From: Zopfochytrium polystomum
Lineage: Eukaryota; Chytridiomycota; Chytridiomycetes; Chytridiales; Chytridiaceae
DNA length: 64,000 nt
Direction of reading: 5' to 3'
NCBI GenBank assembly: GCA_025765615.1
Contig: JAIVFJ010000093.1
Location: forward strand, 1 to 64,000
Shown: positions 9,497 to 53,907 of the stretch, one piece after another
Layout of the letters: the number at the start of each line of letters is the position of its first letter
How positions within the stretch are numbered: the first letter of the stretch is position 1
Made by a program: the position numbers and the translations under genes
Notes under the pieces: generated by a model
The model's input: only the letters and a program-made list of their open reading frames with translations
Told to the model about the DNA's origin: nothing
Database searches by the model: none

Positions 9497-10420
9497 ATGT
9501 CTGACCCAAACAACACCTTCCCTGATGCAACTGCCTTCCAAGCCTTGATGGACCAATTACAAGCCCTTTCAAGACAGACACACCAACTTCAAGAACAAGT
9601 CCTTCACCAGCAGCACCAGCTTCAACAACAACTTCACCAACAAGAACATCAAGCTCTTCCCCTGCCTCAAGCCAACCAAGCAAGAGAGCCCAAGGTTCCC
9701 AGCCCTGACAAGTTCACTGGGCTGGCCAAAGACCTTAGGAACTTCATGGCCACTGTGGAGAATGTCATCCTTCTCCAACCTTCAAGATTTCCCAGTGAGC
9801 AAGTCAAGGTTCTTTTCACAAGCACCCTCCTGTCTGGTCAAGCTCAATCATGGTACAGATCTCTCCCAAGCACACCCACCACCCTGCAAGAGCTCTGGGA
9901 GGGGCTGGAAGCTACCTTTGGTGACCCCTACGCATCTTGGACAGCAAGATCCAAGCTCAAGCATATCAAGCAAGGAAAGCAATCTTGTGTGGCCTACACC
10001 AACCAATTCAAGCAACTAGCCAGAGACTCTGGATACAATGATGCAGCTCTGATGGAGCTGTACCATGATGGTCTCCATGAGTCTATCCAAGACATGCTCT
10101 CCCAGTCTCTGCACATCCCTGAGACCTTGGAAGAGTACATTCTCCTTGCCATCAAGATTGACAACAGACTCTACTCCAAGAGGCTGAAGCAAAGACAAGT
10201 AGGAACTACATCAAGACCTACCCCAGTTCCTCAAGCTCTTACAGTTCCTGAACCCATGCAAGTGGATGCAGTTGAGACACTTCCTAAGGGTCCTCTGAGC
10301 CAAGAGGAGAAAACAAGGAGGGCCCAGCAGGGACTGTGTTTTTACTGTGGCTCCAAGGAGCATGCTGTCAAGGACTGCCCAAGGAAGAAGCACCCAAACT
10401 CCCAGGTCCAGGCTCACTGA
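9497..10420 (+). CDS. gag: Gag polyprotein of the Ty3/gypsy element
   Basis: 307 residues. Structural protein that packages element RNA into virus-like particles. A Gln/His-rich coiled-coil-prone N-terminus (about residues 20-55) is followed by the retrotransposon gag core with FTGLAKDLRNFM and SWYRSL, and a CCHC zinc knuckle CFYCGSKEHAVKDC near residue 281. The reading frame is intact and stops at 10418-10420 within the start of pol, which is read in the -1 frame. Confidence 0.95.
   Translation: MSDPNNTFPDATAFQALMDQLQALSRQTHQLQEQVLHQQHQLQQQLHQQEHQALPLPQANQAREPKVPSPDKFTGLAKDLRNFMATVENVILLQPSRFPSEQVKVLFTSTLLSGQAQSWYRSLPSTPTTLQELWEGLEATFGDPYASWTARSKLKHIKQGKQSCVAYTNQFKQLARDSGYNDAALMELYHDGLHESIQDMLSQSLHIPETLEEYILLAIKIDNRLYSKRLKQRQVGTTSRPTPVPQALTVPEPMQVDAVETLPKGPLSQEEKTRRAQQGLCFYCGSKEHAVKDCPRKKHPNSQVQAH
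10393..10399 (+). promoter_or_regulatory. candidate -1 ribosomal frameshift site
   Basis: CCCAAAC sits in the gag frame as C CCA AAC, the X XXY YYZ pattern for -1 slippage, 21 bases before the gag stop. Sliding back one base enters the open pol frame. No stem-loop downstream was modelled. Confidence 0.5.
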
Positions 10421-13400
10421 GGGGCAATTCCCTGGACCCTCCTCCAAGCTGCCCCTGTTTCATCACCACCACCAGCACCACAAACACCTCAGATTCCAAG
10501 CCCCACCAACTCACCATGGATGTCAAGATTCAACTCTCACCCAAGTCAACCATCACAACCAAGGCCCTTATAGACTCTGGATCATCCTGCAACATCATTG
10601 ATGCCACCCTTGCCAAGTCTTGTGCCATTCCTACGATCAAGAAATCCACACCCCTCAAGGTCCACTTTGCCAATCATGCTCTGTTCAAGGAAATCAGCCA
10701 TGAAACCAAGCTAAACCTCCACATCCAAGACTTTCCACCATCCATGGTCAATCTGGAAGTATTGGACCTTGGCTCACCCACATTCTCTGTCATCCTGGGA
10801 TTACCATGGCTGCAAGCCCAGAACCCTGCCATTGATTGGGTCACTGGTCAAGTCCAACCTCCACCAATCGGAACAGTCACCCAAAACTCAAGTCAAGCCC
10901 CCAAGTCTCATGCTCTCAAGCCCTTGATTCAAGATTCACAGCCAGCCAAGACTCCAGTTCCACAGTTCACAGTTCACAGTCAAGATTCAAGTAGAGCTCA
11001 TAGAGCTCACAGTCATGGCCATGACTCTTGTTCACAGAACCCACAGTCAAAGATTCAAGTACCACAGTTCACAGTCCACATTCAAGATTCAAGTTCCACA
11101 GCTCACAGTCTTTGCCAAGAACAGAACTCTCAGTCAAAGATTCAAGAATCACAGTTCCCAGTCAAGAATTCAAGCCCCACTGCTGAGGAGCACGACAACC
11201 TGGACCCATCAGACCTTTTGCTGGCATCCAAGCTACCAAAAGAATATCTCCCTTATGCTGATGTGTTTTCCAAGACCAAGGCAGACCTGCTACCAGCTCA
11301 GAGGCCTTATGACTGTGAAATCCCACTCAAGGATGAAACTTGCAGCCCACCTTTCAAGCCACTGTACCACCTCTCTCCACCAGAAGCCAAGGCCCTCCAA
11401 GAATACATTGAAGAAATGCTGAACAAGGGATTCATCCAACCTTCCAAGTCACCAGCTGGAGCTCCCATCTTTTTTGTCAAGAAGAAGGATGGGGGACTGA
11501 GACCCTGTGTGGACTACAGAGATCTCAATGAGATGACAGTCAAGAACCGCTATCCACTGCCTCTCATCTCTGAATTACTGGACAAACTGAGCCATGCAAG
11601 GATATTTTCCAAGATTGACCTCAGAGGTGCCTACAATTTGGTCAGAATTAAGCCCCAGGATCAATGGAAGACTGCCTTCAGATGCAAATACGGTCACTTT
11701 GAGTACTTGGTCATGCCCTTTGGACTTACCAATGCTCCAGCTATTTTCCAAGGCATGATGAATGACATCTTCAGGGATATTCTGGACCTTTTTGTCATTG
11801 TCTACCTGGATGATATCCTGGTATTTTCGTCCGACACTGCAAGCCATATGGGACATGTCAAGACTGTCTTGGAGAGACTCAGACAGCATCACCTCTATGC
11901 AAAGCTGGAGAAGTGTGAATTCCACAAGACCTCCATTGAGTTTTTGGGGTTCATTGTGTCTGACAAAGGGATCTCCATGGCACCAGACAAGATCCAAACT
12001 ATTCTTGAATGGAAGGCTCCAAATTCCATCAAGGATGTTCAAAGCTTCCTTGGATTTTGCAACTTCTACAGAACCTTCATTGCCAACTATTCTGCCATAG
12101 CCAAGCCTCTCACTGATCTCACCAAGAAGACCACCAAGTTTGAATGGACCCCAGCAGCAGAGCAAGCCTGGCTAGCTCTTAAGACAGCAACCACAAGTGC
12201 ACCACTCCTTAAGCATGTGGATCCCTTGCTTCCCTTCACCTTGGAAACTGATGCCTCAGACTATGCCCTTGGCGCTGTTCTGTCCCAGCCAAGCTCTCAG
12301 GACCCCTCTGCTCCTCTGCATCCAGTGGCATATTACTCCAGGAAGCTGAACAGTGCTGAGTGTAACTACACAGTCCATGACAAGGAGTTGCTTGCAATTG
12401 TGGAAGCATTCAAATTCTGGAGACACTACTTGGCTGGTTCTAAAGGCATCTCTGTCTATTCTGATCACAAGAACCTCACCTTCTTCAGGGCAAGGAGGTT
12501 GCTCAAGCAGAGGCATGCCAGGTGGGCTGAACTGCTCTCTGAGTATGACTTTAAGCTGTGCTATTCTCCTGGCCACCTTAACACTGTGGCTGATGCCCTG
12601 TCAAGAAGAACAGACCTTGCACCTGAAGGGGGAGATGGTTTCACCCCACCATCCAAGACACACCTTTCATTGCTTCCTGACAGTGTGTGGGCCCATGCTA
12701 TTTCCAAGGACCCCAAGCCTCACAAGATTCAAATCAGCCAAGAAGAGGAAAAACTTGAGATACTCAAGACAAGGCATGATGCAGCAACAGCTGGACACCC
12801 AGGAGAGCACAAGACATATGAGCTTGTTTCCAGAGACTTCTACTGGCCAGGCATGAGGAAGTACATCAAGAACTATGTCAGCAGCTGTGAAACCTGTCAA
12901 AGAAACAAATCCAGCAGACACAAGCCCTATGGACTTCTGGAGCCCCTCCCAATTGCCATCAGCCCTTGGTCATCAATATCCATGGACTTCATTGTGAAAC
13001 TGCCCCCATCCAATGGATTTGACTCTATCCTTGTTGTCATCTGCAGAAGGACAAAGTTGGCCCATTTCATCCCCTGCACTGAGAATATAGATGCACAAGG
13101 AACAGCAGACCTGTTTTTGCAGCACATATTCAGGCTCCATGGGCTGCCTCAGTCAATCGTCAGTGACAGAGGACCACAGTTCAGATCTCAATTTTGGAAA
13201 GCACTCACAGCAGCCCTTGGAATCAAGTCTCAACTGTCAACTGCTTATCACCCTCAGACTGATGGACAAACAGAAAGAACAAACCAGACTCTGGAGCAGT
13301 ATTTGAGGTGCTATGTCAGCTATCAACAGGATGATTGGCCCACCCTCCTTCCACTGGCAGAATTTGCTCTCAACAATTCTCTCCACTCAAGCACCCAGCT

Positions 13401-14055
13401 ATCTCCTTTCTTTGCAACCTATGGCTTCAATCCAAGAGGAGATCTTCTGGGACAAGAGACCCTATCCAATGTCCAAGCTCCTGCTGCGGCTTCACACTTA
13501 CATAAGCTCAAGATCATCAACTCCTTCCTGGACTCCACTCTGAAGCAAGCCCAAGAAGATGCCTCAAGATTTGCCAACACTCACAGAATGGACCATGACT
13601 TTGCTGTGGGTCAGCAAGTTTGGCTTCTGAGGAAGAACTTGCAGACCAAAAGACCAAGTCCCAAGCTAGACAACCTCAAGTTGGGTCCTTTCAAGATCTT
13701 GGAGCAAATCAATCCAGTCACCTTCAAGCTGGATCTCCCTGCATCCATGAAGATCCACCCAGTTTTCCATGTCAGCCTTTTAGAGAAGTTTGTGGCCAAT
13801 TCCATTCCAGGCAGAGTTGTTCCTCCTCCTCCTCCAGTTGAGGTAGAAGGTGAAGAGGAATTTGAGGTTGAACAAATCTTGGATGCCAAGTGGTTTGGAA
13901 GGACACTCAAGTTCCTTGTTAAGTGGAAAGGTTACTCAGATGCTGACAACACCTGGGAGCCTGAGTCAAACCTCACTCACTGCCAAGACCTTCTGCTCGA
14001 GTTCAAGACCAGGTACCCCACCAAGTTGCAGAAGAGGCCTAAAAGGGGGAGATGA
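10393..14055 (+). CDS. pol: Pol polyprotein: protease, RT, RNase H, integrase, chromodomain
   Basis: Open in the -1 frame relative to gag (open from at least 10336) to a TGA at 14053-14055 that directly abuts the 3' LTR. Aspartic protease: LIDSGSSCNIID near 10570. Reverse transcriptase: VDYRDLNEMTVKNRYPLP, and YLDD near 11800. RNase H: ETDASDYALG near 12247. Integrase: HHCC zinc domain at about 12796-12906 (ending CETCQRNK), then the catalytic Asp, Asp and Glu in SMDFIV, DRGPQF and QTDGQTERTNQ. The C-terminal chromodomain (about 13861-14010, VKWKGYSDADNTWEPESNL) probably steers integration toward modified chromatin. No internal stop is seen, so the enzymes may be functional. Confidence 0.95.
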   Translation, partial: PKLPGPGSLRGNSLDPPPSCPCFITTTSTTNTSDSKPHQLTMDVKIQLSPKSTITTKALIDSGSSCNIIDATLAKSCAIPTIKKSTPLKVHFANHALFKEISHETKLNLHIQDFPPSMVNLEVLDLGSPTFSVILGLPWLQAQNPAIDWVTGQVQPPPIGTVTQNSSQAPKSHALKPLIQDSQPAKTPVPQFTVHSQDSSRAHRAHSHGHDSCSQNPQSKIQVPQFTVHIQDSSSTAHSLCQEQNSQSKIQESQFPVKNSSPTAEEHDNLDPSDLLLASKLPKEYLPYADVFSKTKADLLPAQRPYDCEIPLKDETCSPPFKPLYHLSPPEAKALQEYIEEMLNKGFIQPSKSPAGAPIFFVKKKDGGLRPCVDYRDLNEMTVKNRYPLPLISELLDKLSHARIFSKIDLRGAYNLVRIKPQDQWKTAFRCKYGHFEYLVMPFGLTNAPAIFQGMMNDIFRDILDLFVIVYLDDILVFSSDTASHMGHVKTVLERLRQHHLYAKLEKCEFHKTSIEFLGFIVSDKGISMAPDKIQTILEWKAPNSIKDVQSFLGFCNFYRTFIANYSAIAKPLTDLTKKTTKFEWTPAAEQAWLALKTATTSAPLLKHVDPLLPFTLETDASDYALGAVLSQPSSQDPSAPLHPVAYYSRKLNSAECNYTVHDKELLAIVEAFKFWRHYLAGSKGISVYSDHKNLTFFRARRLLKQRHARWAELLSEYDFKLCYSPGHLNTVADALSRRTDLAPEGGDGFTPPSKTHLSLLPDSVWAHAISKDPKPHKIQISQEEEKLEILKTRHDAATAGHPGEHKTYELVSRDFYWPGMRKYIKNYVSSCETCQRNKSSRHKPYGLLEPLPIAISPWSSISMDFIVKLPPSNGFDSILVVICRRTKLAHFIPCTENIDAQGTADLFLQHIFRLHGLPQSIVSDRGPQFRSQFWKALTAALGIKSQLSTAYHPQTDGQTERTNQTLEQYLRCYVSYQQDDWPTLLPLAEFALNNSLHSSTQLSPFFATYGFNPRGDLLGQETLSNVQAPAAASHLHKLKIINSFLDSTLKQAQEDASRFANTHRMDHDFAVGQQVWLLRKNLQTKRPSPKLDNLKLGPFKILEQINPVTFKLDLPASMKIHPVFHVSLLEKFVANSIPGRVVPPPPPVEVEGEEEFEVEQILDAKWFGRTLKFLVKWKGYSDADNTWEPESNLTHCQDLLLEFKTRYPTKLQKRPKRGR
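14041..14055 (+). other. polypurine tract
   Basis: AAAAGGGGGAGATGA directly before the 3' LTR, the expected plus-strand primer. It overlaps the last codons and the stop of pol. Confidence 0.85.
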
Positions 14056-25185: not shown

Positions 25186-25497
25186 GTGAAAGTTGTCCCT
25201 TTTTTTGGGAGATCTCTCTATTTTTTATCTTTTTTTTTTTTTTTTTTTTTTTTTTTCGCGCTGGAGCAGTTTCCGCACTACGTCCTCGCACCACGTAGTT
25301 TTTCAGACTCTGATTCTTTACGGAATAGAAGTAATAAAAGATCCAATCGTGATCCCCAGAAAGCTGCTTATTGTCCAAAAGGTCATGGCTCCGCGTGCCC
25401 CTAATCGTAGCCACAATCTACTCCGGTTGTGAAGAGACGCAGTACGATACCGATACGATTGGGGAACAAAGTCAGCAACGTAAGCCCACTGTTTATT

Positions 25498-25539
<42 letters not shown>

Positions 25540-25845
25540 TGTCTCTCTGTCTCTCTGTCCCTCTTTCTCCCTCCCAGTCAAACCACCCTCCTCTCTCGGT
25601 GATACATTGGCAGCCCGTGGATGGATTGCCGGCGGATGCGACATCGATGACTCCGCCATATGGAGGAAAGCACAATTGCGGCTGCGCCCGCCGCCGCCGC
25701 AGATCAGCCGCGAACAAGACGAACAAAACTCAAAAAAATAAAAATAAAAATAAAACCTCCCCAATAAAATTTTATCAGCACCCCCCCTTAAGAGCCCGCT
25801 CTTTCCACCCTCCCCAAACCCGCGCTCACCCGCCGTTTTTCACAG
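25186..25845. repeat. T-run, CT microsatellite and spacer
   Basis: T-run 25220-25256; (CT)n at about 25499-25560; AAAAT units at 25736-25758. No gene seen. Confidence 0.7.
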
Positions 25846-27696
25846 ATGCCTTGCCGCCGTCGCCGTACCACCACCACCACCACCGTCGCCCTCGCCGTTG
25901 TCGCGCGGTACCTGCTCGCTTTTTCCGTCCTCTCGGCCGTTCTCCTCCTCGCGCTGCTGACCGCCACGTCGCCGCCGCCGTTCGCCCTCGCCGCGTCGAC
26001 GTCGAGCACGGGGACCGAGGTGAAAAAGGGCGTTGAGTGGAGGGCAGAGAGTGGCCCCCTGGGAACTTCTCGATTCGTTTTCTTGCTGAAGATAGCGCCT
26101 TTACCTCATCCCTCCCGTTCCCTGTTTATACTATCTGTCAAAAAAGGTCAGCAACAAAGCCGGAAAGCGCAGGTTCTCTGATTCGGGAGGATCGACCGGA
26201 GGGAATGTAAGGGGAGGAGGTGGAATCGACTCAACTCACCGGGCTGCGTTGGGCCAAAAAAGGTCGGGAAGAGAGCCAAACTGTCGGGCTCCAGCGATTC
26301 CAGCTGGCCGACAAGCGCCGACTTTTCATCCGACGGTTCCTGGAGGACCGGGTCAGGAGGAGCGTCCGGAGCAACTAGTGCACCACCCAAAGTGAGCAAT
26401 GGTTGCCGTTCAGGGGGAGGGGGCTGATGCATCGCCCCAACGGTCTTTTTGGTTGTTGCCTAATCTTTGGCACGCATAAATTCTGCAGACTGGAACCACC
26501 GAAACAGTCGGCGGCGTGACAGTAGCGGTAAGCCTCCGAAGGTTCCTCACTCCAGTTAGTTCGTTTTCGACTGAAAATATACCCCCATTTTTCCCGAATC
26601 CACCAAGATTGGCGAGAAAGTCAAGGATCAAGGCAAGACGTCGACGGTCTACCACGCAAAGCACGGAAACAAGGATGTTATTTACAAGCAGGACAGTTTC
26701 GGAAGCCATTACGGGGGGACCGAGGTGGAAGCCACAAAAGCTGGTTTGGGGTTTCCTTTCAACAATGCGATGCAGACCAAGTGACCCGTAGCTTACCTCT
26801 TCCAAAAGCTGGCCAATTCGTAGCCGTTCAAGACAGTAGAATGGTTCAGAAAAAGGTCGGCAGCACAGGATTGAAGAACTGGCTGCAAACCCAAAAGGAC
26901 AGCCCTGCGGCAAAGTCAAGCTTTCTGCTAAAGGGCGAGAACCCGAAGGACCACCCAGCCAAGACCAAGCTGAGCGAAGCCATATACAGCCAAGTCGAGA
27001 AGAACCAAAAAGACGCCGGATTTCTTCACAAAGACGTTCAATCGGGCAACATCCGAGTTCACGCGAGCCCCAGCGATAAGCCAGTTGGGTTTGCGCAACG
27101 GCTGGGGGCGTCAGGAGACTAACACTCACTTGTTCAAAACGGATTAGGGGACTGTACCAAAAATGGAACTCATCGACTGGGATTTTGGTTTGCGCCCCTT
27201 CTTCCATACCGCTCCCCAATGAAATTGCCATCCAAGTAAAACTAACGCCACCCTTCCCCCGCAACAAAAACAAGCCGCAAAGCCGACGGCCGCACAGACC
27301 ATCGAAGGCCGAAAACAAAAGGACCTCCCGAAAATCAGCGCCGCGTGCGAGGCGGCCGGGTTCCAGTTCCGAGCCGGCCGCGTGCTGTTCCGGCGCGCCG
27401 GCGCCGCGTGCAAGAGATCCCGGTCCTCCAGCAGAGCCGCCGGCAGCCGGGTTGCGAAAGGCAGCAGCGGTAGCGGGGGGGGCGCCGAGACGGGCAAAAA
27501 GGCTGCGGCGGCGAAGGTAGCTGCGGCGGCGAAGGTAGCTGCCGTCGCCGGGAATGCTCTCCGCGGAAACGGGCGGACTGCGGCGGCAGGTGGGAAGCGG
27601 ACAGTGAGCCTGGTGGCGAAGGCAAAAGGTGGAGCCAACCCAGGCGGCAAGGCTCGGGCCGTCGGCCCGCGGTCGGTTTCGGGGAGGCAGGGGTGA
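25846..27696 (+). CDS. Secreted compact protein-kinase-like protein K1
   Basis: Eight exons: 25846-26019, 26147-26206, 26263-26391, 26489-26527, 26608-26743, 26809-27083, 27148-27187 and 27275-27696; 424 residues. The N-terminus is Arg-rich, then a hydrophobic signal or anchor, ending PPPFALAAS. A Ser/Gly-rich linker follows. The kinase-like core (about residues 135-285) has TSTVYHAK with a beta-3 Lys in VIYKQ (Lys161), a catalytic loop HKDVQSGNIRVH (Asp255, Asn260) and a metal-binding ELIDWD (Asp281). These match the ATP-binding and catalytic positions of the protein-kinase superfamily, but the core is very short, with no normal activation segment. A Lys/Ala/Gly-rich basic tail ends the protein. 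Probably lumenal or secreted; substrate unknown. Paralogs lie at 28430 and 30098. Confidence 0.75.
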
Positions 27697-28429
27697 GGCA
27701 AAGGCGGCTTCACGATCAAAGCCTCTTTTACCTGCCTCCAAACTTGCTCCAGTAGCAAAGATGTCCGCGGCAGTGGCGGCGGTGGCGGCAAAAAAGAAGC
27801 AACCAGCTTCCGCAGGGTAACATCATCAGGCTGTCAATAAAAAATACTTATGTGGTGTTTGCAACGGGTTCGGGGTTGGTACTTGTCTTGTGTCGTGCTC
27901 CAAGGACATCAAATACGAAAGTGGGTGCGTGTGGCAGCTGTGGTGCAGCAGCCTCGCAAACCGTTGTTGCAGAAACAGAAAAAAAAGGAAGAAACAGAAA
28001 GTTGGGCAAGAAACGAAGGAATGGGACGAAAAAAGAGAAGAAAAAAAAAAAGAAAAAAAAGAAAGAAAAAAAAAAAAAGATGAAAACGAAAATGGAAAGT
28101 GAAGCCGTGCGACGAAGCCGGTTTGTCTTTGTGTCAAATAAAATAATAAAACCAGACACACAGGGCAAAACTTCCTCATTATTGTGTTGTTTGGGCAGCC
28201 CCCAAGCTGCCGCGTAATATATCAGATCGAATGTTTCGGTCAATGAAAAAAAAAAAATAAAATAAAATAAAATTCAAGTAAAAATGGCTCCGGCGGCGCT
28301 TTCCCCGCCTTCACTATTCCTCCGCCGCCGCCACCGGCTGCGCCAACGACGACGACGACGGCCTCGTCGTCCCCCTCGCCCGTTGAAAACACTCATTCGA
28401 ATCGTCACGATTGGCAACAAAAGCGGAAG
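27697..28429. other. spacer with A-rich tracts
   Basis: No supported gene. A-rich and purine-rich at about 27978-28090 and 28243-28272. The frame at 28284-28400 (Arg-rich) may be a remnant of the exon 1 of the pseudogene that follows. Confidence 0.5.
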
Positions 28430-29340
28430 CGCATAGCGGGCCAGCTGATTGCCAAAGGTGGCAATATGGTGCAAAAGAAAGTCGGCACCACGGAAGCTTC
28501 GGCTGCTTCCCTTGTTCACCCTTCAGTGGTGATTTCCCTCGTTTAGGGTCCTGTTGAAGGGTCTTGTGTCCCGTTTGCTGTCAATATTGTTCTCTTTTTT
28601 TCTGTCTTTGTTTGCATTGAGTGGTCCCGTGAACAAGGTTGTTGTTTGTGCTGCCTGTGCCAGCCCGCTTCCGTCTTCTGCCACTCCCGTGCCACTGCTG
28701 CTTCGTCCTCCGTCATCATCGCTGACTCAGCTCGCGTACGTTAGACCTGGGGTCGCACGCCCATCGTCCGCCAGGTGTAGGTAGGTAGTCCCACCGAGAC
28801 TTCCACAACGGGCTTGAAAGAGTGGCTGCAGACCCAACAAAATAGCCTCGAGGCAAAGTCAAATTTCCTTTCGAAGGGAGAAAAGTCGAAAGACCATTGG
28901 AGATCAGCAACGCCATCTACAACCAGGTCGAGAAGAACCAAAAAGACGCTGGGTTCATCCACCAGGACGTTCATGCAGGCAATGTCCGCGTTCACGCGAG
29001 TCTCGAAGATAAGCCTGTTGAGTCTATTGATAGAAAGGAGGTGTTTCTTACCGATTTCCAAGGAACTGTTCCGAAAATGTAACTCATTAACAGGGATACA
29101 GGTAAGTAGTCATGCATCCTTTTGAATCTTCACCGCGGGAAAAGGTCTGAACACGCCGGCGGCCAGGCTGCGCCGGTCGGGACGAAAAAGAGCGGCGGAG
29201 GCGCAAAGGCTGGACCCACCAGCGCGCAGTCGGAGTCGGGAAGACCGCGTGGTGCGGCAAAGGCGTCTGGTGCTACTTCGAAGCTTGCTCATGCGCGGGC
29301 CTCGAGTGCAGGTGGCGACGACGGCGGCGGGGGCTGCATC
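28430..29340 (+). pseudogene. Kinase-like paralog K2, decayed
   Basis: Fragments of the same family as the flanking genes. 28437-28500 matches the start of core exon 6 (GQLIA, MVQKKVGTT). After about 300 bp of unrelated sequence the match resumes at 28803 (TGLKEWLQTQ) and runs through HQDVHAGNVRVH to GTVPKM at 29080, where the next codon is a stop in place of Glu. There is also a frame change near 28895. Exons 2-5 are not found. A Gly/Lys/Ala-rich stretch at about 29130-29340 resembles the family tail. Catalytic Asp and Asn codons survive, so decay is probably not very old. Confidence 0.8.
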
Positions 29341-30097
29341 ATGGCACCTTGTGTTACCCTTTCCACTTGTCGAAAAACGCTTGCTTACAACGCTGTATTC
29401 CCTCCATGAAACGCTAAGTCAGCCAGTGTTGACAAAGCAGATCAACAAAAAAAGTTTCACGCTTGCGGTGCAACGGTGGGGCGACGACCGAGGTGCGCGA
29501 TTCGAAACGATCGCCATGTAGGTTGGTTACAGGGGAAAGAAAGCAATTTATTTTCCAAAGGCACCAAAATGCGTCGGTATGGCGGCAACCTATGGTGCGA
29601 GTTACTACGCACACTTTCCGCATGTTCTTGCATCGGTTCTACGTTATATATTTGCCCATTTTCAAAGCGCTTATCAATGTAAAGAGACATGCTTGTAATT
29701 TGGGACGGCTTTGTCCATGTTCCTTCCCCTGTTGTTGAAGGAAGAACGAACGTCGAAAACAGCACCACAAAATTGGTGCTTACTCTGTTGGTCGGATATC
29801 AAAAACCGCAAGGAAGGAAAAGCGGAAAAGCGAAAAGAAAGGGGCTAAGTCTTCCGCCAAAATGCACCCGAAGGAGAAAGCCGTGAGAAAGCAGCTTTCT
29901 TGCCGAATTAGGAGAAAGGTCTGAAAAAAAGCTCGTTTCCGCTGCCCCCAAAAATTCTCGGTTGAAAAAAATGGGTTCCGTGGGTGCGCGGCCCGCGCCG
30001 CCCTGGGCTAAGCCAAAAACAGCGCCAATTACATTTAACTTATACTTTACCTCTTCGTACCGTCATATTAATAATCCTTAGTACAAAGTTCAACAAA
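29341..30097. other. spacer upstream of K3
   Basis: No supported gene or repeat seen. Confidence 0.5.
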
Positions 30098-31127
30098 ATG
30101 CCCCAACCGCCGCTGAGGCCGCCGCCCTCCAGCACAAACCACAGCCGGCGTGGCCCAGACCGCCGTCGTCGCGGCCGCCCGCCCGTCCGCACCACCGCCA
30201 TCGCTGCCGCCGTCGCCGCCGCCCTCATGGCCCTCCTGTTTCTTCTTACAGCCATCCCGGCTCTTCTCCCGCAAACCACAAACTACGCCCCGCCGCCGTT
30301 TGCACTTGCCGCGTCCTCGGGCTCCAGAGGCAGTGGCGCGAGGCAATCGCCCAGCGGAGGAGGTGCGGTAAGTGCGCTTGCCCCCCCTGCTTTTTCTCCT
30401 TGTATCGTCGCTCTTGACTGAAAGGCAACCCCACATCTTCATATTTTGCCGCTCGCGATCAAGGTCGGGGACAAGCGAAGGTTCTCGGACGTCTCGGGGG
30501 GCTCCTCAGGGGAAAACGTGAGCGCGTTTTCGAGGTACTTTCTTGACTCCAACAACCTTTTTTTTTTTTTTTTGTTGCTTTTTTGCGCGACAAAAGCCTG
30601 GCAAGAGAGGCAGGTTTTCGGGCGGATCCAGCGATTCCGGTTGGCCGACGAGCGCCGACTTTTCTTCCGGCGGTTCCTGGCGGTCCGGGTCAGGTTCGAG
30701 CGGGTCGTCGGGAGCAACCAGTGCACCATCAAAAGTGAGCAAAATCCAGCCTTTCCTTTTTCTGTTTGTTGTTGTTGCCTAATCTCGAACACACATAAAT
30801 TCAGACCGGAACCACAGAAAAAGTCGGCGGCGTGACAGTAGCAGTAAGCTCTCCCTCCCTCGCTTTGTACTTTTTTGGCTGAATATTTAATTCAACCTGT
30901 CTCATTATCTCTCGATTGATTTACACCAAAGATTGGCGATAAAGTCAGCGATCAAGGCCAGACGTCGACCGTCTACCACGCAAAACAAGGAAACAAAGAT
31001 GTGATTTACAAGCAAGAATCGTTCGGAACCCATTACGAGGGAAACGAGTTGGCAGCGACAAAAGCCGGTTAGTTTGTTCCCAACATTTCACATCACTTTG
31101 CCTCACACTATCCTGAACGCCTCCCCC

Positions 31128-31160
<33 letters not shown>

Positions 31161-34100
31161 TTGCAGCTGGCCAACTGATTGCTCACGAGGATAGCAGGAT
31201 GGTGCAGAAAAAAGTCGGCACCACGGGCCTGAACAACTGGCTGCAGACCCAAAAAGACAGCCCAGCGGCAAAGTCAAACTTTCTCCGGAAGGACGAGAAC
31301 CCAAAGGACCACCCAACCAAGACCAAGCTGAGCGACAATATCTACAACCAGCTCGAAAAGAACCAAAAAGACGTCGGATACCTCCACAATGACGTTCACG
31401 CGGGCAACGTCCGCGTTCACGCGAGCCCCGGCGATAAGCCAGTTGAGTTTTTCTGGATTTGATGGGGAGGGGCGTGATGGGTATGCGGTGGGAGTCGGGA
31501 TATTTATCGCCAATCCGCTTTCCGTGTTCCTTTCTTTCTCCCTCAAACGCTCCAGGGGACTGTACCGAAAATGGAACTGATCGACTGGGATTATGGTGAG
31601 TGCGCGGCAAGAATTCAACTTTCTTTTTTTCGGTTTTTTTTTTTTTTTTTTGCATACGCCTTCATACGCTTTACCTTGGCTAATCGCAGCTCCCCTCCCC
31701 ACTCCCCAACCCAACAAAGCCTCAAAACCGTCCGCCAAAAAGACCATCGAAGGCCAGCGAAAAAACGACCTCACCAAAATCGCCAACGCGTGCGAGGCGG
31801 CCGGGTTCCAGTTCCGCACGGGCCGCGGGCTGTTCCGGCGCGCAGGCGGCGGCGCGTGCGGAAGGATGTCTTCCTCGCCCAAAGCCGCCGGGAAGGACGG
31901 CGGGGCTGCGGCAGCGAAAACGAGCGGCAAGACCGCGGCGGCAGCGGGAGGCGGGAAGACGGGCGGGAAAGGAGCCACGGCGGCCGCTGGGAGCAAAGAA
32001 GTCGCAACGCCGCGCGGCGGCAAAGCGGGCGGCGGCAAGGCAACGGCGGCGGCGGACGGAGGAGCCAAAGGTGCTGGAGCTGGCAGCAAGGCGCCCGGGT
32101 CGACTCGCGGCGGCGGCGGCGGCGGTGCGAACGGCAAGACTCCGGCGGGCGGCGCCGGCGGGAAAGCAACCGGCGCTGGCAAAGCCGGTGGCGCCGGAGG
32201 CGGGAAAGCTGCTGGTGCCGAGGGAAAGACTGCAGGGGCTGGTGGACGCGGCACCAACGCAGCCAGCGGCGGTTAAGACGGGAACAACTAGCAAGGCACC
32301 GGTAAGCGCTGGAGGCAAAGGAGCTGGCGCGGGCAAAGCAGGTGGTGCCGGTGTTGGTGGTACCAACGTCAAGACCGCGGGGGCCGGACGCGGCGCCGGT
32401 GCGACTGGCGGTGGTAAAGGAACGGTACCCGTCGGTGGCAAGGCCAGCGCAATCGCAAACGGAGGAGCCGGCGGAAAAGCAGCCGGATCCGGCGGCGGGA
32501 AAGGCGCCCAAGCTGGCAGCAAGGCTCCCGGGTCGACGCGCGGCGGCAGCGTCGGCGTTGGAACCGGCGGCGGTAAAGGCGGCGTTGCGAGCGGCAAGGC
32601 CCCGGGCAAAACCGGTGGTACGAACGGCAAGACCGCGCCAAACGGAGCAGGCGGTGGTGGCGGCAAAGGAACACTGACTGGCGGCAAGGCAGGCGGAGGA
32701 GCCGGAGGTTCCAAAGCTGGCAGTGCGAATGGCAAGACTCCAGCCGCCGGCGGAGGCAAAGTAACGACTGCGGGCAAGTCTGGCAGCGGCAGCGGCGGTA
32801 AAGCTGTTGGTACCAACGGCAAGACCGCAGGAGGTACCGGACGCGGCAGCGGTGCGAACGGCGGAGCCACCGGCAAAGGAGCTGCCGCGGGCAGCAAGGC
32901 GCCCGCGTCGACCCGCGGCGGCGGCGGCGGAACCGGCGGCCGTAAAGCCGGAGTTGCGGGCAAGGCCGTGACCAACGGAGCAGGCGGCGGTAGCAAGGGA
33001 ACACTGACTGGCGGCAAGGCAGGCGGAGGAGCCGGAGGTTCCAAAGCTGGCAGTGCGAATGGCAAGACTCCAGCCGCCAGCGGAGGCAAAGTAACGACTG
33101 CGGGTAAAGCCGGCAGCGCTGGCAGCGGTAAAGGTGGCGGTACCGACGGCAAGATGGCAGGCAAAGGAGGTACCGGAGCCGGCAGCAAGGGGGGCGTCGC
33201 AGCGGGCAGAAAGGCGCAAACGTCAGCCCGCGGCGGCGGTGGCGGTGCTGGTGGAACCGCAGGTGGCGGCAGTAAAGGTGGTAAGACGGCAGCGAGCGGT
33301 GCAGCCAAAGGAACTGGTGCGGGCAAAGACGGCGGGGGCGGCAAGGCTAGTGGAACCGCCAGCAAGACCGCAGGGGCGGGACGCGGCGCTGGCGCGAGCG
33401 GCGGCGGCGTCGGCAAGGGGTTAGGAGCCGGCGGCGGCAAAGGAGGCGTAACGGGCAGCAAGGCGCCAACGTCGGCGCGCGGCGCCGGCGGCGGGACCGG
33501 CGGCGGGAAAGTGGGCGGTGGGAACGGCAAGACTCCCAGCGGCGTTGGCAAAGGAACCGGCGTCGGCGGCGGGAGCAGCAAGGCGGGAGGGACGACGGCG
33601 GGGCGCGGCGGCGGTGCGGCTGGAGTTGGCGGAAAGGGCGGTCCCGGAAAAGCTGGCGGCGGCGGCGGTGGAGGAAAAGCCGGTGGTGGTGGTGGTGCGA
33701 AGGGCAAGACTGCGGCGGCTGCGGGACGCGGCGGCGGCACCGCCAACGGAGGCGGAGGCGGCGGCGGCAAAGGGACTGCGGCTGTCGGCAAGACCGGAAC
33801 GACGACTCGATCCGGCGCCGGCGCCGGCGGTGGAGCCGGAGGAGGCGGAAAGGGTGGAGCCGGCGGTAAAGCTGGCGGCGGAAAAGCGGCTGGCGGTGGG
33901 GGAGCCGCTGGCAAAAGTACGACTGCGGGACGCGGCGCCGGCGCGAACGGTAGTGGAGTCGGCAAAGGCGCCGGCGTTGCTGGCAGCAAGGCCGCCACTA
34001 CTCGCGGTGGGGGGCGGAGGCGGTGGGGCTGGAGGCGGCAAAGCTGACAAGGCCCAAACTGGCGGCGGAGGCAAAGGGGTGGGTGCGGCGAGCAAGGGTG

Positions 34101-34805
34101 CTGCTCCCACGACCCGCGGCGGCGGTAGCGGCGGCGGTGGAGCAGGAGGCGGGCGGCAAGGGAGGGTCCAGCAAAACTGCCGGCGGCGGCGGTGGTAAAG
34201 CTGGTGGCGCCAACGGCTCGGGCCGCGGCGCTGGCGGAGACGGAGGAGGCGCCGGTAAGGGGACTCCCGCTGTTAGCAAGGCTGGCGGTCAGGGCCGCGG
34301 CGCTGGCGGCGGTGGAGCCGGGGGCGGCGTTGCAAGCAAGCCTGGCTTAGGAGCGGCGGGCCGCGGCACCGGCACCAATGCGGCAAACAGCAAGACACCG
34401 GCGACGAACCGCGGCGGTGGCGGCGGAGGCGCGGTTGGAGGCGCCAAAGCTGGAGGCGGCGCCGGCAGTAAAGCGGCCGCGGCTGGCGGTAAGGCGGCGC
34501 CGGCAACGACGCGCGGTGGTGCTGGTGCTGGGGGCACCAGCAGCGGTAGCAAGGCTGGAGGAGGAAGTGCGGCAGGCAAAACGGCGGGAGGCGGTGGTGG
34601 CGGCAGCGGGGGTAGGCAGTCGGGAACGACGACGAAACAGGCGGCGGCAGCGTCGGCCTCGAAGCCGCAGCAGCAGCCGGCGGCGAAGCAGCAGCAGCAG
34701 GCAGCCCCGAAGCAGCAACAAGCAGCCGCGCCAAAGCAGCAGCAGCAGGCGGCAAAGCCCGCCGCAGCAGCCGCGAAGCCGGCGGCTGGAGGCAAAAAGA
34801 AATGA
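30098..34805 (+). CDS. Secreted compact protein-kinase-like protein K3 with giant Gly/Lys/Ala-rich tail
   Basis: Exons 30098-30367, 30464-30517, 30597-30734, 30805-30843, 30932-31067, 31167-31441, 31556-31595, then exon 8 from 31720. Exons 4-7 (39, 136, 275, 40 nt) equal those of K1. Signal or anchor ends PPPFALAAS, as in K1. The core has VIYKQ (Lys194), HNDVHAGNVRVH (Asp288, Asn293) and ELIDWD (Asp314). As assembled, exon 8 stops at 32276 (502 residues), but Gly/Lys/Ala-rich coding continues to 34805 if one base is dropped at each of 32272-32273, 34009-34017 and about 34151-34155. That would give about 1,340 residues. The tail is built on GGKAGG-like units with basic charge throughout and ends in a Gln/Ala-rich stretch. 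Enzyme activity and role of the tail are unknown; no known family name is offered. Confidence 0.7.
31129..31158. repeat. 30-base C homopolymer in K3 intron 5
   Basis: Uninterrupted C-run just before the TCTTGCAG acceptor. It serves as the pyrimidine tract of that splice site. Confidence 0.95.
31880..34800 (+). repeat. low-complexity GGC/AAG-rich coding repeat of the K3 tail
   Basis: About 2.9 kb of Gly/Lys/Ala/Thr codons. It includes a near-perfect direct repeat of about 113 bp (about 32668-32780 and 32998-33110) coding GTLTGGKAGGGAGGSKAG. Recurring motifs are SKAPxSTRGGG and KTAGAGRGAGA. Confidence 0.9.
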
Positions 34806-35017
34806 CGAGTGCTGGAGAAGATGTGACCTTAACGACTTGTTCTTCACTCTCTTTTTCCATACCGCGTCTAGTTTTGTTTCTTTCCATTTCTAAAAAGCAC
34901 ACATTCATTTGGATAACTTGAATTTGTTTTTTGCAATCCTTTCGTGAGGAGTTTTTCAATGCAGCGTTTTTTGTTTTTTTTTGGCAGACGACACAAATAA
35001 ATCCAGATGTAACATTT

Positions 35018-35397: not shown

Positions 35398-36732
35398 ATG
35401 GGGGCGCCCACTTTCAACTACTCTGGCAACTGCCACTGCGGCGCCTTTTGCTTCGACCTGAGCCTTGCCGCCGTCTCCGCAGCATGCGCTGATTCATCGT
35501 CATCAACATCATCATCATCATCATCATCATCATCATTATCATCGCCTGCTTCCCTCCCGCTCCCGCTCCCGCTCTACGCCTGCCACTGCACGATCTGCAC
35601 CATGAAGGCGTGCATCCTGCTCCCTTTCGTCCCCACACCATCCACCACCGCCAGCACGGTCACCACCACGCAGGCTCGCGCAGGCGGCGGCAGCAGCGTC
35701 CTCGTCGTCGCGTTCATCGTCACGCGGGGCGCCGGCGACGACGGCCTCGGCGGCGGCCCGGCCATGGGTCCGCTGACCGACTTTGCGGTGCCCGGGCACC
35801 GCGGGCGTCACCGGTTCTGCGCGACCTGCGGCACGACCGTGGCGATCGTCGAAGACGACGAAAGCGGCGGCTGCGTCCGCGTGCTGGCGCTCAACGTACG
35901 CGCGGTTCGGCACGGCCGGCAGTTTGTCGCCGACGCTGTCGCCGTCGGCGACGACTCGGCCGCGCCGCCGTCGCTGCCACCGGCGGCACCACTGTGGGAT
36001 CTGCCGCCGCTGCTCGCTTTGGATCTCCGCGCTGCGGCGGCTGCCGGAGAGCGCCTGGCGCCCGTCCCGCAGAGCAGCAGCGACGACGACGGGATCGAGT
36101 CGTTTGCGGCGATCGCGGCGGACGCGGCCGCGCACGAGGGCGAGCGGGTGTACGCCGGCGGCTGCTATTGCCGCGCGGTGACGTACCGCGTGCGTTCGCT
36201 GCCGCTCGATGATCCCGCCGTCGAAGTGAAGGAGTGCGACTGCGCCATCTGCGTCCGCGTTGAGTAGCTTGCTTTTTTAGTATAATGTTCCCTTGGTGGG
36301 CCTACTCTTACACACACACCCCAGATGGGCTCGATCCTGACGTACCCGCGCCCGCTCACCAGGGTGGCGCTCCACCAAACGCACGACGACGCCCTAGTCG
36401 CGTACTTTTACGCGCTGGGCAGCAAGTTTTGCGGGTTCCAGTTTTGCCGGTTCTGCGGCGTCAACACGTGCAACTGGGTGACTGGCCCGCCGGCGGAGGT
36501 GCTCGCGGCAAGCAGCGAGGAAATCCGCGCGGTCGTCCGCGAAAAGGTCGCGATGAAGCCGGTCAACATCAGGACGATGGACTTTTTCTTGGGCCTCCAA
36601 GGCGGCGGCGGCGGCGGGGAGAAAAAGAAGGGGGATCAGGAGGAGGAGGAGGACCGCGCCAGGGTTCTGGCGAGGGTCGAGAGAGTGATGTTCAGCGGGT
36701 GGGGGAAGGCGTACGTCGTGCCGTCATTGTAG
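35398..36732 (+). CDS. Double GFA/CENP-V domain zinc protein
   Basis: Exons 35398-36258 and 36325-36732; 422 residues. Contains two GFA (glutathione-dependent formaldehyde-activating enzyme-like, CENP-V) domains, a Cys-rich zinc fold. Domain 1: GNCHCGAF, ACHCTIC, FCATCGT. Domain 2: GGCYCRAVTY, CDCAIC and FCRFCGVNT; the intron falls just after CDCAICVR and joins it in frame to MGSILTYP, as this family expects. All zinc-ligand cysteines are present in both copies. A (TCA)n microsatellite (about 35494-35540) inserts a poly-Ser loop in domain 1. Many family members are uncharacterised, so a formaldehyde-related reaction should not be assumed. Cytosolic, no signal peptide. Confidence 0.88.
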
Positions 36733-37130
36733 TTTGGGCAAGAAAATAAAGTGTCTTCTTTTCTCTTTTTATTATTTTTATTTTTATTTTTTACCTGGTC
36801 GTTCTGGGGTACGACAATCGACCCCTCTTGCTCTGCTCTCTTCCTCCTCCTCCTCCTCCTCCACCAGTCCAGTCCAGGCCGAGCCGATCGGTAAAAGAGA
36901 GGTAATACTCGCGGTAACGAACCACCACCACCACCACCACCACCACCACCACCAACCAACCACCAACCGCCAACCACCACCTCCCACCGCCCACCGCCCC
37001 TTCCCTCCCTCAGGTCGTTCCATTCACTTCGTCGATTCCGTCGTCGTCGCATTACAAGCCCATCGCATCACAGACAGACGTCTACTCTTCAAAATCACAC
37101 ACGGGCGGCGGCGTCGGAGGGCGGGAAAGA
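36733..37130. repeat. spacer with TCC and CCA microsatellites
   Basis: TCC units near 36844-36864 and CCA units at about 36920-36955, in the leader of the zinc-knuckle gene. Confidence 0.8.
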
Positions 37131-45646: not shown

Positions 45647-48045
45647 TCACTTGCTTCGATCGCTAATTACAGCGGCAACCGCGCGCCACACGGAGAGCCG
45701 ATCCGCGTGGTCCGCGACGCGAATGTGCACGTCAGCAGGGGCGGGGTCCCACTCCGCGGGGATCAAGGCGTCGTCATCGCTCGCCGCCACCTTCTTCTTT
45801 GCGCCTCCAGCGCCGGCGTCGACGGTCTGGAACCGCTCGTAGGACTCCCACAAGGGGATCTGACCGGCGGCGACGGGGAGCGGAAAGTCGACGGTGGGCA
45901 GCAAGGGCCACTTATCCTCGTCGATCTTTGCGAGTCTTACGACGTCGCGGACAGCAACCGCGATCTTGTGGTATCCGACGACGTTTGCGCCCTCGAAGGC
46001 GGACGGCTGGAACGGGGCGGGGGTCGCGGCCGCCGATGACGGCGGCGCGGACGCCGAAGCGGGAGCGCAGGGTGCGGACGAACATGGCGCAGGAGGAGCC
46101 GCACTGGCCGTCGTTGAGGAGGGTGACGGCGGAGGCGGGCCATGCGCGCTGGAGCTTTGGCAGGTCCGTGAAGTCGCCGCAGTAGAGGTTGAAGCGGTCG
46201 CTGTAGGAGCCCTGGACGCCGCCGCGCAGGAATGTGTGGCGGTGGGTGAGGGCGGAGTCGGCATCGGGGGTGACGGGGATGACGTTGCTGAGGGAGATGG
46301 CGTCGGAGGCGTTGACGAGGGCGTCCGAGGACGCTGATTTTTCGAGGATCGCGGCAAAGGTGGGCGACAGGCGGACGTCGTGCTGCAGCATCTCGCCGCC
46401 GCTGCCAAAGAGGAGCTGGATCGTCATCGCCGCGAGGCACATGTAGCCCCCGCCGTTGTCCGTCCCGTCGATGATGAGCTGCTTCGCGCCGGCCTTTTCC
46501 AGTGCCTGCAGCCCGGCGATGATGGTTGATGCCATCCTCTCGTAGGGGGTATCTGCGTCAAAGGACGACGATAGCCAGACGCCAATAGTGCCGTTCAGCA
46601 TGTAGAATGCAGAGGCTTCGTCGCTCGCGAGCGGCGTGACGTCGTTGAGATCTGTTTCATCCGTGATGAAACCGAGGCCATTGGGTTCGGTCTTTCCATC
46701 TTGGATGCGGCTGTTGATCGAGCTGACGTGCAGGTTGTAGTTCCGGAGAACTTTTTTCACGTCGATCGGACGGTCTAGTCTCTGCCGCCGGTTCTTGTCC
46801 AATAAATTCAGGAGGGGAAGACTGTGCGGATAGCGTGCGGTGTCAGCTGAAGGGAGAAAAAAAAAAGGGGAAAAAACACATATAAAACGCGAGCCAAGTT
46901 TGCCCCGGCACGCAGCGCGTTTCTTACCGATTCCGGAAGAACGACGCAACATTCTTATCCTCCCCGTTCGAATCCGGAAGGGAGCACATTGCTTGGTAGT
47001 ACCTGTCGCTTGTGGAAAACGACGTCCCGGCTGTTGAATATCCAACCCAGTCGGCCTTGACAGTAGCGGTGGAGCCGGACTTCTCCAGCTCGTACGTGAC
47101 CGCATTGGCCATGGACGGCAGGATCCGACTCGTGACCGCCCAGTCCCCGGCATTGATCAAGTGGCTTCCGTTGAGGTAAGCCGCTTGGGCAAGCACCATA
47201 TTGAACCGGCCCTGCGGGTCCTTGAGCTGGCCCAAGCTGTCGGCAGCGCGCTGCAGGTACTCTGCGGCCGGCTTGCCGTCGATCGATTTTACCGTCCAGC
47301 CGACGTACTTTGTCGCATTTCGCTGCGACGCCTGAAGGGTCGGTAGAATGCGCGCGACACTATCGTCGCTGAAGGTGTCGGAATTGAGCGTGGTGTTTCG
47401 AACGTAGATTGTGGACGCCGCGCCGTTGGAGCCGTGCTTCACACTGAGCATGAAGGGCTGCATCAAGAGCGTGCTCGAGAAGCATCTCGTGAAGTAGGAA
47501 ACGTGGGCGTCGTTCAGGCTGGCGAGGTGAGCAGACAGCTTTGTCTGGAAAGCAAACTCGGTGTCGAGGGTTTCGTCGGCCGCTGCCTTATCGAGCAGAG
47601 CGATGATGTCGACTTTTGACTCGTAATTCGGCGCTGACGACGCCTTTGCAATGTCCAGATAGGGATACCTGTTGCACCCGTGGCCCCGTGGGTGTTTGGA
47701 TGGAAAGGTGACGAGGATGTGTTTAAAAGTGCATCACAGATCGAAAGAAAGAATTATCGCCCGTGGCGCTTACAGCTGCAAGAATCGCTTCATCGCATCA
47801 ACCTGGGCCGCACGCTTCTCTGCATCGATTGGAAACGAGTTGTAGCATGCCACGACCTCCGCGCCAGTCACGACACGAGGGGTGTTGGTTGCGCCCTGGA
47901 CCCAGTTGTTTGACGCGATGACGGCCTCGCATGGGTCTTGTTTCGCGGCGGCGGCGGCGGCGGCGGCGACCGCGGCGAGGGAGAAGGACGCGGCGACGGC
48001 GACGGCGGTGAGCAGGTTTAGTGGCCTTGGTGCAGCAAGAAGCAT
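45647..48045 (-). CDS. Secreted S41-like (CPAF-type) serine peptidase, one apparent frameshift
   Basis: Exons 47774-48045, 46928-47668 and 45647-46821; about 728 residues. Signal peptide MLLAAPRPLNLLTAVAVAAS region. The central PDZ-like part (GWTVKSIDGKPAAEYL) and the C-terminal peptidase fold, with DNGGGYMCLAAM and NDGQCGSSCAMF, fit fungal secreted relatives of tail-specific protease S41, in which the Ser after G-x lies in the nucleophile turn (about residue 578). It would cleave extracellular proteins. Frame is lost at a five-base G-run (46019-46023, C-run on the coding strand) where one base fewer restores it; downstream sequence (FQPSAFEGANVVGYHK) is still S41-like. Intron 1 is 105 nt, intron 2 is 106 nt. 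An alternative upstream acceptor for exon 3 was rejected because it gives a stop. Confidence 0.8.
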
Positions 48046-52119: not shown

Positions 52120-53907
52120 TCAAACAAGCACGACGTGGTCGACCCACTCCATCTCCAATGTCTCCGCGTCGACCCACTCGGCCGGACCGGTGACCGCGAC
52201 GCGGAGGCCACCAGCGTCGCCGCCGTCGCCGTCGACAACGTCGTAGTGCCTGATGACGGCGGCGGACAGGACGGTGGCGGCGGCGTCGGGGTTGGTGGAG
52301 GATGCGCCGAGGATGCGGACGGTGCCGGGGGCGTCGTCGGCGGCGTCGACGACGGACCAGGAGCCGTCGCCGCCGCCGGCGGCGGGCTTGACGGCTTTGA
52401 TGATGAGGACGAGGGGCGGCGGCGAGGTCGACACGGGGCCGTGGCGGGGCGCGAGGAGCCGCGGGAGCTTGCGGAAGCGGATGGTGGGCGGGTTTGCGGC
52501 GGCGGCGGTGGCGGCGGCTGTGTGGGAGCGTTCGGCGCGGGCGTTAAAGATGATGCAGCCGCTCGCGGAGGCGGGCATCGCGTCGGTCTTGAGGGCGTGC
52601 CAGGACGGACGCGGGGCGTTGCCGTGGGGGCCAGAGGCGTCGAGCGGGGCGGTGAGGAGCCACCAGGTGAGGGCTTCGTTTGTCAGGTTGTCGCCAAGCC
52701 AGGCGTCTGCGTCGGCTAGGGTGGCCGTGGAAGGGGGGAGGGTGGAGGACGCCCTATCGGCCAGCTCGGGGCACAGCACCGAGTGGAGGCCGAGGGTGCC
52801 AAAGACTTTGTCCACGTCGAATAGGCACGAGCGGTGGGTCAACATCTCTTTGATGGACAGGGCGGTGGGGACCCAGGAACCCCTGAGAAGGTTGAGCGCC
52901 GCCGACAGGTCTTGCTGCGCGTTCTGCGCTTTGTAGGACCGTTCTAAGTAGTAGAACAAGTGGTAGTCGGTCATGAAGCGGCGCGCGATGGTCCCTTTTC
53001 CGTGGGCGTCGTTCGCCGCCGCCGACGACTCTGCTGTCGCCAAAGGGTCCTTGATTCCGCGATCCACGAGGTACACGACCTGGAAGGGGAGCCAGGACTC
53101 TTGGGCGGTCCAGACGCGGCGGAACCACGGGGGAGACTCCTTGAAGTGGCCATTGGGATCAAACTGAATGTTTTCCGCTGGGTCGTAGAGGTAGGCAAGA
53201 CAGGTCGAGGCGCGCGAGTAGTAGTCAAACATGCGCGCGATCTCGTGGGGGCGATTCGTAAAGTCATCTTGATCGATGCACATGACGTCCATCCAGAGGT
53301 AGTCGAAGCCGAGGGACTGCGCGTCGCCAAGGATCTTGTCCAGCGTGCTTACCGAGACGGACGGAACGGACCAGTGGATGCCGTGGACGGCGTGGCCGCT
53401 CCCAGCACTGGCAGCGCCTCCATCGCCGTCGCTGTCGTCGCCTTCAACATTGACGTCGCCGGCTTTTGGGGCAAAGTGCGAGCGCCAGAGGTACGATACG
53501 GCGACGTAGGCGATGGGCAGGTCTCGCTGCAGCTCCTGGCTCGTGGCGACGACGCGCGACGAGCGCGAAGGGATGTGGAACAGCCTGGTGGGGAGCAGAT
53601 GGGCGGGCAGGCGCACCGAGTTGACGAGGCCGTGGCTGTGGCGGAGCTCGTCGGGCGGGAATGCGGTCGGGGTGCGGTGGTGGTGGTGGTTGTTGTTGTT
53701 GTTGTGATGAGGAAGCTTGGGGAACTGGCGGTCGGTGCTGGCGTGGTGAGCGGCGGAGGCGGCGGCAACCTGGGGCGGCCGGGCCTTGTGGTGGTGGATG
53801 CGGTTGGTGACGGACTCGGCGTAGGTCCTTGCGATGAAGGCGGCGGGGTTGTCGTCGTCGTTGTCGTTCTCCTGTTGTCGTTGTTGTTGTTGTTGTTGAG
53901 GGAGCAT
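52120..53907 (-). CDS. HET-domain protein
   Basis: Intronless, 595 residues. The HET (heterokaryon incompatibility) domain starts near residue 130 with [14 protein letters not shown], runs through [17 protein letters not shown], an [15 protein letters not shown] block, and ends near [14 protein letters not shown]. These are the usual conserved blocks of the domain, with an acidic insertion ([11 protein letters not shown]) after the first. HET proteins trigger cell death on non-self recognition in filamentous ascomycetes; other members have no known role. Low-complexity Gln/Asn/His stretches flank it. The C-terminal third has no domain I recognise. TATATAT at about 53963-53972 lies some 55 bp upstream of the start. 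Confidence 0.85.

Follow-up and report, generated by a model that had tools for sequence, protein, structure and literature searches.

What do the tandem loci between positions 25846 and 34805 of this Zopfochytrium polystomum DNA encode, and where would their products act? The window analysed is a stretch of 64,000 nucleotides, part of contig C93 (253,647 bases), and the species' own genome (80.2 Mb, 761 contigs) was searched alongside it. The initial annotation had proposed two genes (K1 and K3) and a pseudogene (K2) for secreted, minimal kinase-like proteins with polybasic tails, and our analysis supports this secreted or lumenal minimal-kinase interpretation. The upstream gene, K1, is built as follows.

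25846..26019, forward strand: K1 exon 1; Arg-rich n-region, hydrophobic segment and PPPFALAAS; start of public protein P0001
26147..26206, forward strand: K1 exon 2; linker, present in P0001
26263..26391, forward strand: K1 exon 3; Ser/Gly linker, borders set by homology to K3 and different in P0001
26489..26527, forward strand: K1 exon 4; 39 nt
26608..26743, forward strand: K1 exon 5; 136 nt, glycine-loop region, beta-3 Lys and helix-C Glu
26809..27083, forward strand: K1 exon 6; 275 nt, hinge and catalytic loop H-x-D-x-x-x-x-N
27148..27187, forward strand: K1 exon 7; 40 nt, metal site DWD
27275..27696, forward strand: K1 exon 8; terminal helix, first Cys, FxFR..LFRR, second Cys and a 99-residue basic tail to the first stop

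The exons of K1 measure 174, 60, 129, 39, 136, 275 and 40 nt, followed by exon 8; all borders are GT/AG and the frame is kept. The public model P0001 corresponds to K1 and has the same exons 1, 2, 4, 5 and 6, with different borders for exon 3. Since P0001 ends inside the intron after exon 6, it lacks exons 7 and 8 and the tail. K3 has a matching layout.

30098..30367, forward strand: K3 exon 1; Arg-rich n-region, hydrophobic segment and PPPFALAAS
30464..30517, forward strand: K3 exon 2; linker
30597..30734, forward strand: K3 exon 3; Ser/Gly linker
30805..30843, forward strand: K3 exon 4; 39 nt
30932..31067, forward strand: K3 exon 5; 136 nt, beta-3 Lys194 (codon 31010) and helix-C Glu206 (codon 31046)
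31167..31441, forward strand: K3 exon 6; 275 nt, His286 (31385), Asp288 (31391) and Asn293 (31406)
31556..31595, forward strand: K3 exon 7; 40 nt, metal Asp314 (codon 31583) of DWD
31720..32276, forward strand: K3 exon 8; terminal helix, Cys342 (31791), FQFR..LFRR, Cys364 (31857) and basic tail to the in-frame stop
32277..34805, forward strand: K3 tail continuation; Lys/Gly/Ala-rich coding in two other frames, ending ...GGKKK-stop

Here the exon lengths are 270, 54, 138, 39, 136, 275 and 40 nt plus exon 8, again with GT/AG borders and a preserved frame; protein-database searches returned no public protein for K3. The Lys/Gly/Ala-rich tails proposed for these loci are present, with the qualification that K3's own tail comprises 144 residues to the first in-frame stop, which ends at 32276, and then passes into other frames. 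The GGKKK-stop end of this continuation matches several relatives, and the uninterrupted tail frame of a copy on contig C71 provides a comparison for the two frame changes, which may reflect mutation, assembly error or something else. A basic-Ser motif (KRRFS, KRGRFS, KRAKLS) recurs in the linker encoded by exons 2 and 3 of both K1 and K3; it might be a site of phosphorylation or one akin to a nuclear-import signal.

Between the two genes lies K2, whose pieces are described here without being joined.

28436..29277, forward strand: K2, degenerate relative
28436-28492, 28808-28846 and 28903-29001, forward strand: K2 exon 6 fragments, with an insert and a frame change
29062-29082, forward strand: K2 exon 7 remnant, reading GTVPKM-stop
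29236-29277, forward strand: K2 tail-like remnant

K2 is indeed a pseudogene: the signal exon is missing, exon 5 cannot be recognised, exon 6 is broken and the exon 7 remnant contains a stop. A signal peptide ending in PPPFALAAS had been ascribed to all three loci. The motif occurs exactly twice within window positions 25401-34900, in K1 and in K3, and the statement is wrong for K2 because that locus lacks such an exon. The core exon lengths of 39, 136, 275 and 40 nt are correct as described and shared by K1 and K3.

Could these genes be artefacts, that is, chance exon joins or a repeat taken for genes? Searching the genome with the K3 exon 6 core gave 100 matches, the best of them outside the window at E 2.2e-38, and the family is therefore not a product of chance. 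Three own-genome searches yielded 100, 65 and 86 matches, which merge into 128 places on 91 contigs, comprising all rows of the 100- and 65-match searches and three of the 86 rows judged new by eye. The number of genes is lower than 128, because broken copies and near-identical contigs are counted. Of 38 gene models attempted, 26 have every core splice site, and the exon-length and tail counts exclude the remaining 12, among them K2. Exon lengths of exactly 136/275/40 recur in 17 of these 26 models and the 40-nt exon 7 in every one. The exon joins are supported by two public models, P0014 using the same joins and P0002 doing so except for seven extra residues at the exon 6/7 junction, and by copies on C71 and C29 in which exons 6-8 and the tail form one open frame of 824 and 1179 codons, respectively. 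The breakage of K2 and other copies, the frame changes in the K3 tail and the low complexity of the tails would suit an artefact. So would the absence of all C-terminal parts beyond exon 6 from the public P0001 (K1) and P0003, which counts against the joins. Set against the identical joins of P0014, the uninterrupted C71 and C29 frames, confident predicted kinase models and purifying selection, an artefact is already contradicted, and we regard it as highly improbable.

Across the 23 pairs listed with any difference, core dN/dS ranges from 0.09 to 0.63 (0.28 for K1/K3), showing at the level of sequence that the cores are under purifying selection. Each of the 19 public members retrieved bears the name 'hypothetical protein' and lacks a precomputed Pfam domain, and several of the public models are truncated or fused. 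This is a large, diversified and so far unannotated family. Its architecture, predicted kinase fold, residue conservation, purifying selection and size are shown by sequence and computation.

Some details of the genomic arrangement deserve mention. Stretches of 1.2-9 kb are common, at 96.5-99.6% identity, to contigs C648, C247, C606, C689 and C663; such sharing, seen among the small contigs with L038, L039, L040, L041 and L048, suggests uncollapsed haplotypes or recent segmental duplications. In a subfamily formed by L054, L057, L061 and L062, no intron interrupts exons 6-8 and the tail, giving fewer introns than in K1/K3. Four-fold TTAGGG repeats number 261 on the forward and 0 on the reverse strand genome-wide, lying near right-hand contig ends in most rows shown; this one-sidedness may be an artefact of the count.

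The encoded core is that of a strongly reduced kinase. Both predicted structure models confidently adopt a bilobal kinase fold, as had been anticipated, and VIYKQ, H-x-D-x-x-x-x-N and DWD are seen in K1 and K3 as first described. Conservation was assessed in 30 cores, namely 23 of the 26 models (all but L047, L048 and L056, whose cores are broken) and seven of the 19 public proteins chosen for completeness, with near-identical copies included and two loci counted twice (P0014 = L035, P0002 = L036): the Lys, His, Asp, Asn and metal Asp are kept in 30/30 and the helix-C Glu in 27/30. DWD or DWE replaces DWG in five of the 30, K1 and K3 both having DWD. In the predicted model, subdomains VIII-XI are absent; the DWG is followed by about ten residues, the last helix and a hairpin, in agreement with a nearly missing activation segment. 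The initial estimate of about 150 residues for the core proved too small, the real size being nearer 190, because exon 8 contributes a conserved helix and Cys module.

Profile libraries barely recognise this core. A single member, L043, exceeds the Pfam cut-off for ABC1 atypical kinases (27.2 versus 22.9 bits), and every other kinase-type Pfam match with a printed score falls below its cut-off, including L051 and L058 (narrowly, at 22.1 bits) and the Pkinase match of P0008 (22.9 of 31.7 bits). PF03109 (ABC1) matches 11 of 16 members at E<=0.1, one of them above the cut-off, over about 63 residues. FunK1 (PF17667) matches three of the 16 at E<=0.1 and none above the cut-off, the K3 core reaching 11.9, the K1 core 13.4 and L034 12.4 of 24.1 bits. 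Profiles built against solved structures (PDB) gave weak kinase matches only, and an NCBIfam search gave noise only. Camelid antibodies, the top two PDB matches for A5 (E 0.0024 and 0.0026), match the CxxxGFxFR hairpin only and were set aside as chance.

The initial annotation had not reported a second conserved element, a pair of cysteines. After the DWG and the roughly ten residues and single helix that follow it, the layout reads C-x(n)-G-F-x-F-R...L-x-R-R-x(n)-C. All 22 testable models (of 26) have exactly one core Cys, with the next Cys 4-7 residues beyond LxRR or the core end; the tails of 15 contain no further Cys and those of seven contain more. Cys342 and Cys364 are the only two cysteines in the predicted K3 product up to the first stop. 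No other sequence feature hints as strongly at an oxidising environment, and the two cysteines are probably linked by a disulfide that closes the shortened C-lobe.

The N-termini look signal-like. By hydropathy scan, as distinct from a signal-peptide predictor, 17 of 19 public members and K3 have an N-terminal hydrophobic segment (15-residue mean hydropathy >=2.19), preceded by an n-region that is positively charged in all of these public members but P0011 (16 of 17), and 18 of 20 sequences have no further 19-residue stretch above 1.0. P0004 and P0005, which lack the segment, both look truncated; in P0019 it begins only at residue 86, and P0012 has no cleavage-like site. The n-regions of 15-47 residues (85 in P0019) would also fit an uncleaved type II anchor. 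The proteins might be kinases of the Golgi or ER lumen, type II membrane or soluble, that phosphorylate the fungus's own secreted or wall proteins much as Fam20 or CotH do. Signal-like N-termini and retained catalytic residues agree with this, as does the expansion of CotH kinases with signal peptides to 17 in Mucor lusitanicus, described in the available text of PMC9973265. Nonetheless, no match to PF08757 (CotH) was listed for the 25 sequences scanned, fragments and repeats included, nor any Fam20 profile match in the Pfam scans of family members, and a housekeeping role would not need about a hundred variable copies. We consider such a role rather unlikely.

Tail length in the models ranges from 28 to 1085 residues (tail table: 22 of 26 models). 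A recognisable C-module is present in 10 of 19 public members, where tail net charge is +8 to +29 and eight of the ten end in KK; nine public models, K1's own included, have none. The C71 tail comprises 645 residues in one open frame with 82 Lys and 24 Arg versus 12 acidic residues, a net charge of +94 and one Cys. Fungal low-complexity regions are reported to be depleted in lysine and arginine (available text of PMC11878562), so these tails are unusual in themselves. If the tail were the active part, as a polycation toxin, adhesin or matrix former, the core might be a pseudokinase-like binder of nucleotide or protein. The five DWD/DWE variants, the loss of much of the C-lobe and the fact that the tail is the largest part of several copies would accord with this. 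Yet the five catalytic residues are invariant in every core compared and the core is conserved while tail length varies widely, and we judge a pseudokinase improbable.

Since the fold is predicted, the catalytic residues are conserved, selection is purifying and a Cys pair is present, a functional secreted or lumenal kinase is the most economical interpretation. Our preferred reading, held tentatively at a little short of an even chance, is that K1 and K3 are members of a large family of kinases that act in the secretory pathway or are secreted, and that are anchored to polyanions by their tails. The N-terminus would direct these proteins into the secretory pathway. The reduced core would retain N-lobe, hinge, catalytic loop and DWG/DWD metal site, with the activation segment and large C-lobe replaced by a single helix and a small hairpin bounded by the cysteines, and a putative disulfide would probably shut the shortened lobe. 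Most likely the tail, which is disordered, polycationic and a few dozen to more than 600 residues long, tethers the enzyme to polyanions, candidates being the cell wall, the matrix, nucleic acid or the surface of another cell, and the tethered enzyme would phosphorylate neighbouring proteins outside the cytosol. We infer secretion, disulfide, catalysis, tail binding and targets from these features. The replacement of DWG by DWD in K1 and K3 counts against this reading, as does the scarcity of ATP outside cells. The same holds for the sub-cut-off Pfam matches of members other than L043, the missing C-module in nine public models, the additional tail cysteines in seven models and the two frame changes in K3's tail, as well as for n-region lengths that would suit an uncleaved type II anchor.

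The tail is best explained as a polyanion anchor; the chief alternative is that it serves for uptake by another cell or for targeting to that cell's nucleus. The proteins would then be effectors entering prey, host or competitor cells. An OspG-like truncation of the core and a large, species-restricted family with degenerate copies would befit effectors, and there are precedents in the available texts on CRN8, ROPK and a 20-member Plasmodiophora brassicae kinase family. In addition, among 20 contigs with known length (at least 100 kb each), 15 of the 35 family places fall no more than 30 kb from a contig end, where 8.3 would be expected (p about 0.009), although the places are not independent and contig ends are not telomeres. 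Against effectors, no translocation motif was found, a target cytosol would reduce the putative conserved disulfide, and dN/dS is below 1 in the pairs listed. We also know of no host of Z. polystomum. The available text of the literature naming Zopfochytrium gave taxonomy, a reference and a strain name only. Effectors are, in our estimation, an unlikely explanation.

How does the family with its putative polyanion anchor relate to known systems? Protein-database searches found no relatives outside Z. polystomum. These searches rely on shared 5-residue words, and in one of them scoring was restricted to the 7998 candidates with the most words in common; other chytrids may therefore hold distant relatives. 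In pattern scans, 0 of 31 stretches in viral contigs (with A2) and 0 of 85 in prokaryote genomes (with A5) were confirmed as relatives, and no publication on these genes was among the best-ranked titles of our literature searches. A viral origin was rejected: of 106 BFVD matches at E<=0.001, the named ones among the 50 listed are mostly protein kinases and none points to a virus.

The likeness to OspG/NleH is structural only, a reduced kinase without subdomains VIII-XI in the predicted model. Those proteins are bacterial and injected by type III secretion, whereas here a eukaryotic gene encodes a signal-like N-terminus; to our knowledge they lack a signal peptide, the Cys pair and a polycation tail. 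They are not among the PDB profile matches listed at E<=10 (six of six for A2, the best 60 of 166 for A5). As sequence kinship is not shown and the delivery system differs, we do not claim membership of the OspG type. CotH, HopBF1 and, for P0014, OspG are not among the 50 VIA-align rows listed, which says nothing against kinship.

Animals, parasites and a few fungi are known to secrete kinases. By analogy of biology, CotH is the nearest known fungal parallel, with its signal peptides and expansion in an early-diverging fungus; it differs in its profile, which finds no match here, and the available text of PMC9973265 mentions neither a Cys pair nor a tail. Toxoplasma ROPK, Phytophthora CRN8 and the Plasmodiophora set are secreted kinases too, ROPK and the P. 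brassicae set being expanded families (available texts of PMC3682881, PMC3426532 and PMC12503489). They differ in belonging to other lineages with known hosts and in having different leaders; the Pfam families listed here for full-length proteins include none with the LFLAK-type leader domain of CRN effectors. At least in ROPK, the kinase domains are full-size. ABC1/UbiB (PF03109) resembles the stretch from catalytic loop to metal site, weakly and in 11 of 16 cores, but the match is limited to some 60 residues, against a profile length of 244 positions; ABC1 proteins are large proteins of mitochondria or plastids. The small RIO and Bud32 (PRPK) kinases are compact folds that appear among the 50 structural rows listed per model, but no family member matches their profiles above the cut-off, and they are intracellular.

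If correct, our reading would add a secreted enzyme family to the chytrids, one nearly missed by profile libraries, and would offer a natural eukaryotic series for asking how little kinase suffices for catalysis outside the cytosol. A bolder version, possible though doubtful, is that these are a new secreted class: disulfide-closed half-kinases with their own polycation anchors, encoded at about a hundred loci of a single chytrid, reduced independently in the way of bacterial effector kinases and serving as a variable arsenal against other cells.

The window holds further features of note. Directly downstream of K3, at 35398-36749 (forward strand), lie Cys-rich ORFs, which we take to resemble GFA-type enzymes; the first (35398-36264) has no Pfam match at E<=0.001. 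A 413-codon ORF at 45912-47153 (reverse strand) matches peptidase S41 narrowly under the cut-off (23.3 of 24 bits). Positions 9497-14055 (forward strand) contain a Ty3/gypsy-type retrotransposon, with a gag-like ORF followed by a 1239-codon pol ORF matching protease, RT, RNase H, integrase and chromodomain. Finally, a 595-codon ORF at 52120-53907 (reverse strand) encodes a HET (heterokaryon incompatibility) domain (E 3.7e-13), here in a chytrid.
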